Below are positions 377-5,332 of a DNA stretch of 5,332 nt, in pieces. The position numbers and the translations under genes were made by a program. The DNA is from Candidatus Aerophobota bacterium. GTDB lineage: Bacteria; Aerophobota; Aerophobia; Aerophobales; B3-G15. Every line of letters starts with the position of its first letter. Positions within the stretch are counted from its first letter, which is position 1. Where the stretch lies: NCBI GenBank assembly GCA_003648845.1, contig QMQA01000113.1, positions 1-5,332 of the forward strand, read 5' to 3'. The notes beneath the pieces are model-generated. The model had not been told where the DNA came from. It saw nothing but the letters and a program-made list of their open reading frames with translations, and ran no database searches.

Positions 377-952
377 ATGAAAAATTCTAAGTCCGAACTT
401 ATCCTTAACGTTGCTCAAAAGCTATTCGCGCAATATGGATTTAAGAAAACCACTCTTGACGAAATTGCTCGCTCAGCTCACATTACCAAAAGCAGCATTT
501 ATTATTATTTTGATAGCAAAGAAGATATTTTCCGCGCCGTGCTGGAGAAAGAAAACAGGTTATGGAGCCAAAAGATAAGGGAAGTAATTAGCAAGGCAAA
601 TACCCCTCAGGAAAAGTTGCGCGCTTACGTTGTAACAAAAATGAAGCATCTTAGCCAATTAGTTAACTTTTATAGTGCACTTAAGGAGGAATATTTAGAG
701 CACTATTCCTTTATCGAGAGGATAAGAAAAAAGAATCTCCAGGAGGAGATAAAAATAGTGAGGGCAATTTTAAAAGAAGGGGCAAAAAAGGGAATTTTTC
801 AGGTAGAAGACCTGGAGTTAGTGGCATTTGTTATCGTCACAGCTCTCAAAGGACTGGAATATCCCTGGGCAATGAAAGTACCTATGCCTGACATGGAAGA
901 GCATATCGATCTTTTGCTGAAAGTATTATTCAATGGATTGTTGAAGAGGTAG
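377..952 (+). CDS. TetR/AcrR-family transcriptional regulator
   Basis: This 191-residue protein has the usual length and plan of a TetR-family repressor. The N-terminal DNA-binding domain spans about residues 5-55. It contains the signature GFKKTTLDEIA, then the recognition helix in ITKSSIYYYFDSKEDIF, which is the most conserved part of the family. Residues 60-191 are mostly helical and form the ligand-binding and dimer domain; they are too variable to name the ligand. The start is supported by AAGGAAG (362-368), eight bases before the ATG. The protein probably represses its own promoter through the dyad at 330-358 and may sense a substrate or product of the radical SAM operon downstream, but that link is only proximity. 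Three of nine Arg codons are CGC, unlike the almost pure AGA/AGG use in the radical SAM genes, so it may have a separate origin. It ends at TAG; a TAA follows five codons later. Confidence 0.9.
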   Translation: MKNSKSELILNVAQKLFAQYGFKKTTLDEIARSAHITKSSIYYYFDSKEDIFRAVLEKENRLWSQKIREVISKANTPQEKLRAYVVTKMKHLSQLVNFYSALKEEYLEHYSFIERIRKKNLQEEIKIVRAILKEGAKKGIFQVEDLELVAFVIVTALKGLEYPWAMKVPMPDMEEHIDLLLKVLFNGLLKR

Positions 953-1171: not shown

Positions 1172-2566
1172 ATGAAGGTGATGCTTATTCTTCCTCCATC
1201 TAAGTTTGTCTTGAAGGATAAATTAGGCATTACCAGCGTTCCTCTTGGTCTTGCTTATCTTGCTTCCTTCATTGAAAAAGATGGGCATAAGGTAAAAATC
1301 ATTGATTCTAACACCTTAGGTTACAGGATAAAAGATATTAAAGAGGAAATTGAAAAATTCAACCCCCATCTTGTAGGTGTAACTGCCACAACATCCTGTA
1401 TTTACGATGCCTATGAAGTAGCAAAGATTATAAAGGAGGTTGATCCCGGAATAAAGGTTGTTATAGGAGGTCCTCATGTAACTTTCATTGCAAAAGAGAC
1501 ACTTAAGGAATGCCCTTTTATAGATGTAGTTGTAAGAGGAGAGGGAGAGGAAACTTTTAGAGAACTTGTAAACTTTTTTGAATCTTCATCGGAGGATACC
1601 TGGTCTCTTGAAGAGGTTAAAGGGATAACTTTCAGGAAGGATAACAAAATAATAGAGACAGATAGCCGTTCTCTTATAAAAAATCTGGATAGCATCCCTT
1701 TTCCTGCTTATCATCTTCTACCTATGGAAAAATACAGTCTGGAGGGTAAGAGATTTGCTACCATAATTACTTCAAGAGGTTGCCCCTTCTCCTGTATTTT
1801 TTGTTCCTCCTCACGGCTTTTTGGCAAAACCTGGAGGGCGAGGTCTCCTGAAAATGTTATAGAAGAGATAAAACTGCTAAAAAATAAATATGGGGTGAGA
1901 GAAATAGAATTTTTAGATGACACCTTCACACTAAATAAGAAAAGGGCAGAAAAAATATGTGAGATTTTAATTAAAGAAAAAATCGATATTTCCTGGTCCT
2001 GCTCGTCAAGAGTTGATACCATAGATGAGTCGTTAATAGAAAAATTAAAAAAGGCAGGATGTCATACAATTTACGTTGGCGTTGAATCGGGTTCTCAAAA
2101 GATACTGAATATAATTGATAAAGGTATTACTTTGCCCCAGATAGAAAAGACTATTAATCTTATAAAGAAGGTTAATATTAATTCATTTGGCTCTTTTATA
2201 TTAGGAATTCCTGGAGAGACAGTAAAAACAATTAAAAAAACTATAAATTTTGCCAAGAAGCTAAATCCATCCTTTGTCCAGTTTAGTATATGTACTCCCT
2301 ATCCCGGGACAAAACTATTTGAAATGGCCAAAGAAAAAGGTTGGCTTTTAACAAAAGACTGGTCAAAATATACCATTCTTGACCAGGTTATGAAAATCCC
2401 GGGGATGGTCACCACCAATCTTAACAGGTGGCTTTTAAGAGCCTATCTTAGTTTTTATCTTAGACCAAAGTTTATACTCGAACAGTTGAAGAGGAAGGGT
2501 TTCTTTTTCTTTGTCACCAGAAAGATCTTCGCAGCGGCCCTGGAGTATGTGGGGGTGAAAAGGTAA
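1172..2566 (+). CDS. B12-binding-domain radical SAM protein (intact, first of three)
   Basis: This 464-residue protein has the two-domain plan of COG1032 enzymes. Residues 1-140 form a Rossmann-like cobalamin-binding-type domain: an N-terminal strand (MLILPPS), PLGLAYLA, the VKIIDSN strand, and GGPHVT at 99-104 followed by RGEGEETF. The classic DxHxxG loop is absent, which is common in this group. The radical SAM barrel starts at about residue 195. C204, C208 and C211 form the CxxxCxxC motif that holds the 4Fe-4S cluster, with Phe before the last Cys. FLDDTFT (247-253), GVESGS (303-308) and GIPGE (345-349) are further SAM-binding and barrel motifs. The C-terminal helix region (WLLRAYLSFYLRPKFIL) is seen in many members and may shape the substrate site. 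Such enzymes use SAM and often methylcobalamin to methylate or rearrange unreactive carbons; the substrate here is unknown. The ATG at 1172 has a strong Shine-Dalgarno site. The gene is 26 bases upstream of the next. Confidence 0.9.
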   Translation: MKVMLILPPSKFVLKDKLGITSVPLGLAYLASFIEKDGHKVKIIDSNTLGYRIKDIKEEIEKFNPHLVGVTATTSCIYDAYEVAKIIKEVDPGIKVVIGGPHVTFIAKETLKECPFIDVVVRGEGEETFRELVNFFESSSEDTWSLEEVKGITFRKDNKIIETDSRSLIKNLDSIPFPAYHLLPMEKYSLEGKRFATIITSRGCPFSCIFCSSSRLFGKTWRARSPENVIEEIKLLKNKYGVREIEFLDDTFTLNKKRAEKICEILIKEKIDISWSCSSRVDTIDESLIEKLKKAGCHTIYVGVESGSQKILNIIDKGITLPQIEKTINLIKKVNINSFGSFILGIPGETVKTIKKTINFAKKLNPSFVQFSICTPYPGTKLFEMAKEKGWLLTKDWSKYTILDQVMKIPGMVTTNLNRWLLRAYLSFYLRPKFILEQLKRKGFFFFVTRKIFAAALEYVGVKR

Positions 2567-3374
2567 ATTATGCAGCTTCTTGAGGGAAGTAAATGCCCGA
2601 TATCATTCTTACAGCAGATAAAACTGTTTTAATTAACCACAAGTTAACCTGCCTTGGAGGCTTTGTTGCCTGTATTCCAAGAGGTTCTCTTCCCTCTTTT
2701 TTCATAAGCTACTTTGAAAAGAAAATCTTTCTTCCTGCGCCAACAAATGAAAAAGGTGAGGTGGAGATAGCAAATCTTCTTTTAAGAAAAGTGGAGGCTA
2801 TTTTGCTTGAAAGAGGCTTTGATGTTCTTGTGTGTGATTCAACTCAGCTTGATGGGTTACATGCAAAAGTTTATGGTATAAGTACAATTGATCCCTTTGG
2901 AATTGGTCCTGCTACATCTACCATGGTAGGTCTTTCAGGAGGGAAAGAGCCTTTTAACAGGTATTACTTTGAGAAGCTGGTGAGGACAATAAGGAAAGAG
3001 CATCCAAAGGCAAAAGTAATTGTTGGAGGGCCTGGAGTATGGCAATTTGATGTTTTTCCTGAAAAGCAAAAACAGCTTGGTATAGATTGCATTGTTCAGG
3101 GAGAAATAGAAGAAGTGGGGGAGGGACTTTTTAAAAATGCTCTCATAGGTGATATCCCCAGAAAGATTGTGGCTCCTCCTGCAAAGAAAATAACAGGAAT
3201 AAAAAAACCTACATTGTGGGGAATGGTTCAGATAGGAAGAGGATGTGATAGAGGATGTCAGTTCTGTGATCCAGGTATGAGGCATTATGCCTGGAGACCC
3301 ATTAAAGATATTCTGGAAGATGCAAAGGTTAATGCAAAATCAAGGTATGTAAATTCAATAACCCTCCTTGCAGA

Positions 3375-3394
3375 AGATTAGCTAAGATATGCTA
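3375..3394 (+). repeat. Adjacent 10-base near-repeat covering the internal TAG
   Basis: AGATTAGCTA (3375-3384) is followed directly by AGATATGCTA (3385-3394). They agree at eight of ten positions; the only difference is TA in the first copy versus AT in the second. The first copy contains the TAG stop. A 10-base duplication would shift the frame, yet the frame matches on both sides, so the stop did not arise by simple duplication. It may be chance in AT-rich DNA. Confidence 0.4.
3379..3381 (+). other. In-frame amber codon at position 263 of the second radical SAM gene
   Basis: TAG lies between GAT (Asp262) and CTA (Leu264), with conserved radical SAM sequence in the same frame on both sides. 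In related proteins remembered from this family, an aliphatic residue usually follows the 'AED' strand end. A single change from TTG (Leu) would therefore make this stop. Alternatives are pyrrolysine or suppressor read-through, or a base error. Nothing in the window, such as pylT or pylS, supports recoding directly. Confidence 0.85.
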
Positions 3395-4141
3395 ACAAAC
3401 CTGGCGAATGGGTGCCCTGTGGGAAGATAATAGATCTTGTAAACAAGGTAAAAAAACTTGGAAAACCAATATCTCCTTCCCATGCCAACTTAAGCTCCGC
3501 AGCAGCTGCACCTGAGATAGTAAGGGAATATTCTAAAGCATTGGGGTTAACAAAGGATAATTTCAGTGCATTTCAGGTAGGACTTGAGACAGGCTCTACA
3601 AGATTAATGAGGATGCATATGAAAGGGAAGGCTTTACCCTGGGAACCTGATAGATGGCAGGAGGTTGCAAAAAAGGGATTTGAAGTTTTAGTTAAAAACC
3701 ACATATTTCCTCTTGCAACCCTGGTTGCCGGTCTTCCTGGAGAAAAGGAAGAGGATGTTCAAGAAACCATAAATCTTGTTAAAGATCTTAAAGAATATCC
3801 CTCTTTAATTATGCCCCTCTTTTTTGTTCCTTTGGGGAGATTAAAGGATAATAAATCCTTTATAGAGCAAAACCTTACCGAAATTTATAAGGAGCTTTAT
3901 GTTACCTGCTTTGAGCATACAGCTTACTGGGGAAGAAAGTTTACCTCCTGGGGTGGGAGATCTCTACCTTTTATAGCTCAGTGGGTTGTCCACGTTGGGA
4001 CAATGCTTGCTTTTGATTACTTTAAAGCTTTAAAGGAAAATAAAAAAGTTTCTTATACTAAGTGGAGCTTTTACCTTTTAAAAGAAAATAGCATCTTTCT
4101 TGCATCAAGAATCCTGCCTCCCCAAAAATTAAAAGTTGCCT

Positions 4142-4147
4142 GAGGAG
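4142..4147 (+). promoter_or_regulatory. Shine-Dalgarno site overlapping the stop of the second radical SAM gene
   Basis: GAGGAG uses the last two bases of the TGA (4141-4143) and lies four bases before the ATG at 4152. This places gene 3 in the same transcript as gene 2 and suggests translational coupling. If ribosomes stop at the internal TAG of gene 2, coupling to gene 3 would be reduced, so the amber codon could also lower expression downstream. Confidence 0.55.
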
Positions 4148-4151
4148 AAAA

Positions 4152-5332
4152 ATGGAGGTAGAGCTTATCTGTCCTACCTGGAGCAAAAAAACGGAAAAAA
4201 AGAGAGCAAAAAGAGCAAGAGTATTTAAAATACCCCCTCTTGGACTTTTAAATGTGGCTGCTATAACGCCTGAAGATGTGAAGGTAACCTTAACAGATGA
4301 GAATGTTGAGGTGATAGATTTTGATAGAAAAAAGGATCTTGTAGGTATTACAGTTATGACCTCTGCTGCTCCAAGAGCCTATGAGATTGCCGATATCTTT
4401 AGAAAAAAAGGAGTACCGGTAGTATTGGGTGGTCCACATGTATCAGCCCTGCCAGATGAGGCAATAAAATATGCTGATTCTGTTGTAATTGGTGAGGCAG
4501 AAGGTGTGTGGAAAAGGTTAATTGATGATTTTAAAAGATACGGCAGGAAAGGTTTGAAAAAATTTTACAAAAATGAGGAAAAACCTGATCTTTCTGAGGT
4601 TCCTTTTCCAAGGTGGGATCTTTTAAAAAAAGAAAAATACATTGTTACAAAAGTCCTGTATGCAACAAGAGGATGTCCTTTTAACAGCTCCTTTTGTTCT
4701 GTAACAGAGGTTTTAGGAAGAAAGATAAGAAAAAGGCCTGTTGAAAAAATTGTAGAGTGTGTTGAGAAAAATGTAGGCAAAAGTTTAAAAGATCGTTTTT
4801 TTGTCTTTTTAGATGATAACATTATGGGTGACAGGGTATATGCAAAAGAGCTTTTTAAGGCACTTGTTCCTTATAAATTAATATGGATGAGTCAGGCATC
4901 TGTTAATGCTGCCTATGATGAGGAGCTTTTAGCTCTTGCTGCAAAAAGTGGATGTAAAGCCTTATTTGTTGGTTTTGAAACTATTCTGCCTCAGGCTCTT
5001 AAAGAAATAGGCAAGCACCAGAATAAAATAGAGTTTTATCTTGAGGCTATAAAAAGATTTCACAGATATGGTATATTTGTGGAGGGAGCTTTTATATTTG
5101 GGTTTGACAGTGATACAAAGGATGTTTTTGAAGAAACTGTAAGATTTGTCAATAAAGCAAAGCTTGATGGTGTGCAGTATACCATTTTAACACCTCTTCC
5201 AGGGACAGCATTTTATGAGAAGATAGAAAGAGAGAAAAGGTTTATAGATAGGGACTGGTCAAATTATGACTGTGGGCATGCAGTTTTTAAGCCTAAAAAC
5301 ATGACACCCGAAGAGCTTCAGGCAGGACTTTC
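4152..5332 (+). CDS. B12-binding-domain radical SAM protein with a degenerate cluster motif (3' end outside the window)
   Basis: The frame is open from the ATG to the right edge, giving 393 residues; family members are usually about 440-500, so the C-terminal tail is missing. Residues 1-150 form the cobalamin-binding-type domain, with IPPLGLLNVAA, LTDENVEVID, GGPHVSALPDEA (93-104) and IGEAEGVW. The PFPRWDLL linker leads to a radical SAM barrel with FLDDNIMGDR (D221, D222), VGFET (273-277) and LTPLPGT. This matches the COG1032 group whose members carry a 'GCPxxCxFCSVT' motif. Here that motif reads GCPFNSSFCSVTE: C175 and C182 are present, but the middle Cys at 179 is Ser (AGC, 4686-4688), one base from TGC. 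All three Cys normally bind the 4Fe-4S cluster, so the protein is probably inactive as drawn, unless it is a non-catalytic partner or this is a base error. It follows gene 2 after eight bases. The substrate is unknown. Confidence 0.88.
   Translation, partial: MEVELICPTWSKKTEKKRAKRARVFKIPPLGLLNVAAITPEDVKVTLTDENVEVIDFDRKKDLVGITVMTSAAPRAYEIADIFRKKGVPVVLGGPHVSALPDEAIKYADSVVIGEAEGVWKRLIDDFKRYGRKGLKKFYKNEEKPDLSEVPFPRWDLLKKEKYIVTKVLYATRGCPFNSSFCSVTEVLGRKIRKRPVEKIVECVEKNVGKSLKDRFFVFLDDNIMGDRVYAKELFKALVPYKLIWMSQASVNAAYDEELLALAAKSGCKALFVGFETILPQALKEIGKHQNKIEFYLEAIKRFHRYGIFVEGAFIFGFDSDTKDVFEETVRFVNKAKLDGVQYTILTPLPGTAFYEKIEREKRFIDRDWSNYDCGHAVFKPKNMTPEELQAGL

Follow-up and report, generated by a model that had tools for sequence, protein, structure and literature searches.

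A single in-frame amber codon in a radical SAM gene from a Candidatus Aerophobetes-like contig: a probable local consensus or assembly error

The TAG codon that interrupts the second radical SAM gene of the window studied here (an entire contig of 5332 bases) is best read as a single-base difference that most likely stems from an error of the consensus or from a locally chimeric assembly, and not as a state of the population; we assign this reading a probability of about 0.58. The true gene would then most likely encode an uninterrupted radical SAM enzyme of 516 residues, as in its sisters, with glutamate at residue 263, and the consensus base of the contig would be wrong at that codon. The host of the contig would be a Candidatus Aerophobetes-like bacterium, and the stop was found in no other database entry. 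Near-identical sister sequences settle most of the question here. We suggest such sisters as the first comparison whenever a short metagenome contig shows a lone stop in frame.

The interrupted gene, gene 2, occupies positions 2593–4143 of the forward strand and comprises 516 codons followed by TGA. Homologs, an alignment and the AlphaFold model of a sister protein mark its product as radical SAM protein 2, probably B12-binding. Reading of the frame, together with the alignment and comparison with related DNA and sister proteins, places its sole internal stop, a TAG, at 3379–3381 of the forward strand, at codon 263, where the sister proteins have Glu. A first-pass annotation, made from the letters of the DNA, had described a single amber at codon 263 (in the range 3340–3420) of a frame of 516 codons with no second stop or frameshift, flanked in frame by conserved motifs, and on each of these points it was correct. 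The cysteines C218, C222 and C225 of the CX3CX2C motif (CxxxCxxC in the annotation) and SITLLAED precede the TAG, and LRYA, VGLETGS and GLPGE follow it. The three cysteines are invariant across 26 aligned rows.

With X placed at the stop, the full frame of gene 2 gave 386 homologs at E ≤ 0.001, of which 120 were listed. Coverage of the query is 100% for the best 13 of the listed matches; the top three, P0002, P0003 and P0004, are 516 aa long and 99–100% identical to it. These end-to-end homologs argue strongly that the frame 2593–4143 is a genuine gene and not a chance open frame. The clusters of the three sisters hold 16, 2 and 1 member sequences, respectively. They belong to the 15 closest listed relatives (P0002–P0016), in which the three named proteins (P0014–P0016) are from Candidatus Aerophobetes. 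A match to PF04055 is precomputed for the three sisters; the truncated half of gene 2 scores 24.7 bits with this profile, below the cut-off of 29.5. The same half matches PF02310 weakly over residues 125–177 (24.6 bits, cut-off 32.1), a domain carried by a minority of the gene 2 homologs listed. At the DNA level, orthologs were found in Aerophobetes drafts at locus L001 (516 aa, 81%) and at locus L002 (80%, incomplete at the contig end). Across 17 genomes of the phylum, a close ortholog is present in G001, G002 and G015 and a partial one in G016; ten of the remaining 13 have distant matches only and three have none.

What did codon 263 specify before the stop? Residue 263 is Glu in the three sisters and, more broadly, in all 15 of the closest listed relatives. 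In an alignment of all 120 homologs listed (of 386), the column holds Val in 96, Glu in 15, Thr in four, Ile in three, Met in one and Phe in one, and Asp occupies the preceding position in all 120. The codon is GAG in L001 and GAA in L002, the GAG of L001 differs from TAG by one base, and none of the three orthologs read as DNA (L001, L002 and L007) has a stop in the gene. Given Glu in the sisters and relatives, and GAG and GAA in the two loci, the original codon was likely a Glu codon. The TTG origin favoured by the first-pass annotation thus fares poorly, while its preference for a point mutation holds up: the sisters at 99–100% identity have a sense residue and the stop allele is confined to one contig. 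The annotation had also proposed aligning close homologs at this column, and all 120 of those listed have an amino acid there, Glu in the sisters. The range of residues in the column (Val, Glu, Thr, Ile, Met and Phe), together with Glu in the sisters, indicates that position 263 is tolerant and that a special residue would not be needed there.

The stop appears to be private to this contig. The protein database consists of predicted proteins, in which a stop allele would appear as a truncated entry. A search with the truncated product of 262 aa returned eight proteins, of which the sole near-identical one is the window's own (one member, one contig of 5332 bases). None of the other seven is near-identical and, in the alignment to P0002, none ends at residue 262; the nearest end point is that of P0246, which is 36% identical and aligns to residue 269. 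Compared with P0002, the product of gene 2 differs at two of 516 residues, namely 263 (the stop) and 463, and the window agrees with P0003 at the latter. The remaining differences from P0003 or P0004 are each common to at least one sister. Hence, the stop stands alone among the protein-level changes in gene 2 in having no match in P0002, P0003 or P0004. Codon differences from L001 are distributed much alike on the two sides of the stop, with 67 synonymous and 51 replacing before it, and 69 and 46 after it. By this comparison the halves of the gene would have evolved alike, such that any break must be very recent; with equal constraint before and after the TAG, any inactivation would be too recent to show. 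One private stop, uninterrupted sisters and equal constraint on both sides are likewise what nonsense errors and null alleles of the ordinary kind show in metagenome contigs. The first-pass annotation had left recent inactivation, a base error and recoding side by side; our analysis keeps a point change, be it an error or a fresh null, and does not support recoding.

Two local oddities among the relatives of gene 2 are worth recording. Residues 340 and 342 (window positions 3610–3618) are R and H in the window and P0002, and N and W in P0003 and P0004, a difference that requires several base changes within nine bases. Two homologs, P0245 (229 aa) and P0248 (188 aa), resemble the same enzyme minus large in-frame pieces. 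In P0245 the junction lies at a repeated motif, GF(D/E)VLV, which makes either misassembly or a genuine deletion at the repeat possible.

The choice between an error and a real base draws on the adjacent gene. Gene 3 (4152–5332, forward strand), which runs off the contig end, encodes B12-binding radical SAM protein 3, with PF02310 and PF04055 both over the cut-off. It contains another improbable patch, 1.3 kb beyond the TAG: in protein alignments, residues 170–188 (4659–4715, forward strand) depart from the nearest relatives at six positions, including a Cys-to-Ser change at residue 179 (4686–4688). Relative to P0122, a sister at 98% identity, gene 3 differs at seven of 393 residues, and six of these fall within the 19 codons of the patch. 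All six patch residues are absent from all four nearest relatives (P0122, P0123, P0124 and P0146). Uniform random draws of seven positions were equally clustered in one of 200000 cases, a figure that applies to a patch picked after being seen. Ser179 replaces the second Cys of the cluster-binding CX3CX2C motif of gene 3, which is Cys in 120 of the 120 homologs listed (of 7329 found). P0122 is the only near-identical sister of gene 3, and it is listed without a source, like the window's own proteins.

A stop and a lost cluster cysteine in adjacent genes, with little else changed, favour a locally bad or chimeric consensus. A segment taken from a divergent relative, with errors added, might have the composition of the gene 3 patch: of the 120 gene 3 homologs listed, Tyr170 and Ser179 each occur in none, whereas Phe177 occurs in 47, Glu186 in seven, Val187 in three and Leu188 in 19. 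The presence of four of the six patch residues in other family members counts against a consensus error, as does the variation of the sisters themselves in a small cluster (gene 2 residues 340 and 342). The patch could, on the strength of those four residues, be a real recombinant allele.

What would the interrupted gene produce? The AlphaFold model of P0002 has a mean pLDDT of 89.5, and its best Foldseek match is MgmA (PDB 9ccb; E 1.5e-15, TM 0.55 by query length). The top 14 matches also include TsrM (6wte), AprD4 (6fd2), CysS (9n1d) and TokK (7kdy), as well as the methylthiotransferases MtaB and MiaB. On the basis of this fold, the product of gene 2 is probably a cobalamin-dependent radical SAM enzyme. 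It resembles MgmA, TsrM, AprD4, CysS and TokK in fold, and it has the CX3CX2C motif, but these named matches are only 10–15% identical in sequence, and the copy in the window is interrupted at codon 263. In the P0002 model residue 263 comes just after the strand at 256–259, and the strands at 293–295, 325–332, 371–379 and 405–410 come later. With these four strands lost, a product of 262 residues would not be expected to form an active radical SAM barrel.

This bears on the principal alternative, that the base is real and represents a recent nonsense mutation, that is, a null allele in this strain that is too young for other decay and has an inactive product. We regard this as possible, though less probable than an error. 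The one base that separates TAG from the GAG of L001 is consistent with it, as are the position of the stop after strand 256–259, which leaves the first two barrel strands of the P0002 model and removes the later ones, and the loss of a cluster cysteine from gene 3 as well, as might happen once selection on the pathway has lapsed. However, a local error better explains two improbable lesions in adjacent genes that are otherwise near-identical to their sisters, one lesion sitting among six tightly clustered changes, and the listed ORFs of the window show no other evident frameshift or internal stop.

An alternative in which the gene remains functional is that its halves are made separately, the second from a GTG at 3412. 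An ORF with this start does exist (3412–4143, forward strand; 243 aa). It is a mechanical ORF of hypothetical expression, and we take it to be a remnant of the C-terminal half of gene 2. A functional split is nonetheless highly improbable: visual inspection shows no evident ribosome-binding site ahead of 3412, the break falls between barrel strands in the P0002 model, and the search with the 262-aa N-terminal product gave no other near-identical entry of truncated length.

Could a pyrrolysine system or an amber suppressor tRNA decode the TAG, such that a full-length protein is made? If it were pyrrolysine, the proteins that host this residue would gain a new type. The pyrrolysine methylamine methyltransferases MttB, MtbB and MtmB likewise have a TAG in frame between stretches of conserved sequence, and the constraint after the TAG of gene 2, which matches that before it, is consistent with decoding. 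In true pyrrolysine genes, however, the TAG generally keeps its position between species. For trimethylamine methyltransferase, PMC8318568 gives 327 of 485 in deltaproteobacteria and 334 of 483 in archaea. The TAG of gene 2, by contrast, occurs in one contig and is replaced by Glu in the sisters. The TAG thus appears not to be conserved at the same position in orthologs, as would be expected of a pyrrolysine gene; sisters at 99–100% identity have Glu, and column 263 is variable among the 120 homologs listed. An amber-suppressed or reassigned code would be expected to use TAG seldom or never to end ordinary genes. In the G001 and G002 loci, by contrast, nine of the 29 mechanical ORFs with a minimum length of 150 aa end in TAG, which is a common ordinary stop there, and it also ends the TetR gene of the window.

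The decoding machinery was judged from draft genomes of relatives, and from these we infer its absence in the window's own genome. Profile searches for PylS (TIGR02367), PylB and PylD covered the 17 genomes of the phylum; the control genome Methanosarcina acetivorans responded in all three, and in each search one control, not specified by name, exceeded the cut-off. The large subunit of PylS was detected in one of the 17 genomes (G017; 351.6 bits, cut-off 178.15), which favours decoding. However, PylB and PylD were each over the cut-off in none of the 17, and PylS was over it in none of the four genomes with a gene 2 ortholog (G001, G002, G015 and, with a partial one, G016). None of the tRNAs predicted by ARAGORN, 24 in G001 and 18 in G002, has a CUA anticodon (Rfam counts are 26 and 23). 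These genomes are drafts that may be incomplete, and each of these absences is therefore weak singly. Together with Glu in the near-identical sisters, they make recoding very unlikely. We give similarly little weight to a newly born recoding, in which a strain with a pyrrolysine or amber-suppressor system tolerates or uses a TAG that has just arisen at a permissive site. The possibility, raised by the first-pass annotation, that a radical SAM enzyme is a new pyrrolysine host therefore finds no backing: the position is not conserved, the genomes with orthologs have no PylS, PylB or PylD over the cut-off, and no CUA tRNA was predicted in G001 or G002. Excerpts from the literature on Aerophobetes and pyrrolysine, and on in-frame amber codons and radical SAM, did not describe any radical SAM gene recoded in this way.

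The PylS of G017, a genome with no close gene 2 ortholog, lies at L049:16841-17674 on contig C38. A corrinoid-protein-like ORF (TIGR02370, 67.6 bits, below the cut-off of 215.3) comes next and is incomplete, as it runs into the contig end. ARAGORN found no tRNA in L049, neither PylB nor PylD is over the cut-off in G017, and none of the ten MttB-like matches of this genome, some of which are fragments, has an internal TAG. It is possible that the PylS represents contamination of the bin. The only MttB match of the phylum search with a seemingly internal TAG, in G012, was rejected as a case of recoding, since the TAG is the last codon of its ORF, 12 bases before the end of the match, and hence an ordinary gene end.

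Two genes lie upstream of gene 2 in the window. A TetR-family regulator of 191 aa (377–952, forward strand; PF00440, E 6.6e-18) has TAG as its own stop (950–952). Gene 1 (1172–2566, forward strand) encodes B12-binding radical SAM protein 1, which is 464 aa long and uninterrupted, ends with TAA, has PF02310 and PF04055 over the cut-off and finds an 82% full-length match in G001. Scans of the window with Rfam and for tRNAs gave no match, nor did a plasmid search; two viral contigs that came up as pattern matches were rejected as relatives, neither being related. The gene order has parallels elsewhere. In both L001 and L007, gene 2 has a gene 3 homolog behind it, and on the contig of L001 (G001:C160) gene 2 comes after the end of a homolog of gene 1.

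The full-length match to gene 1 in G001 lies on contig C173 (82%). A second match in the same genome is split between C158 (89%, residues 1–410) and C160 (89%, residues 393–464), and two such close matches suggest either a duplicate or a mixed bin. Behind the gene 2 and gene 3 pair, L001:3221-3643 holds the start of a flavoprotein-like ORF. By eye, we take this ORF to resemble the geranylgeranyl reductase family, which would presumably hint at a lipid-related role for the cluster.
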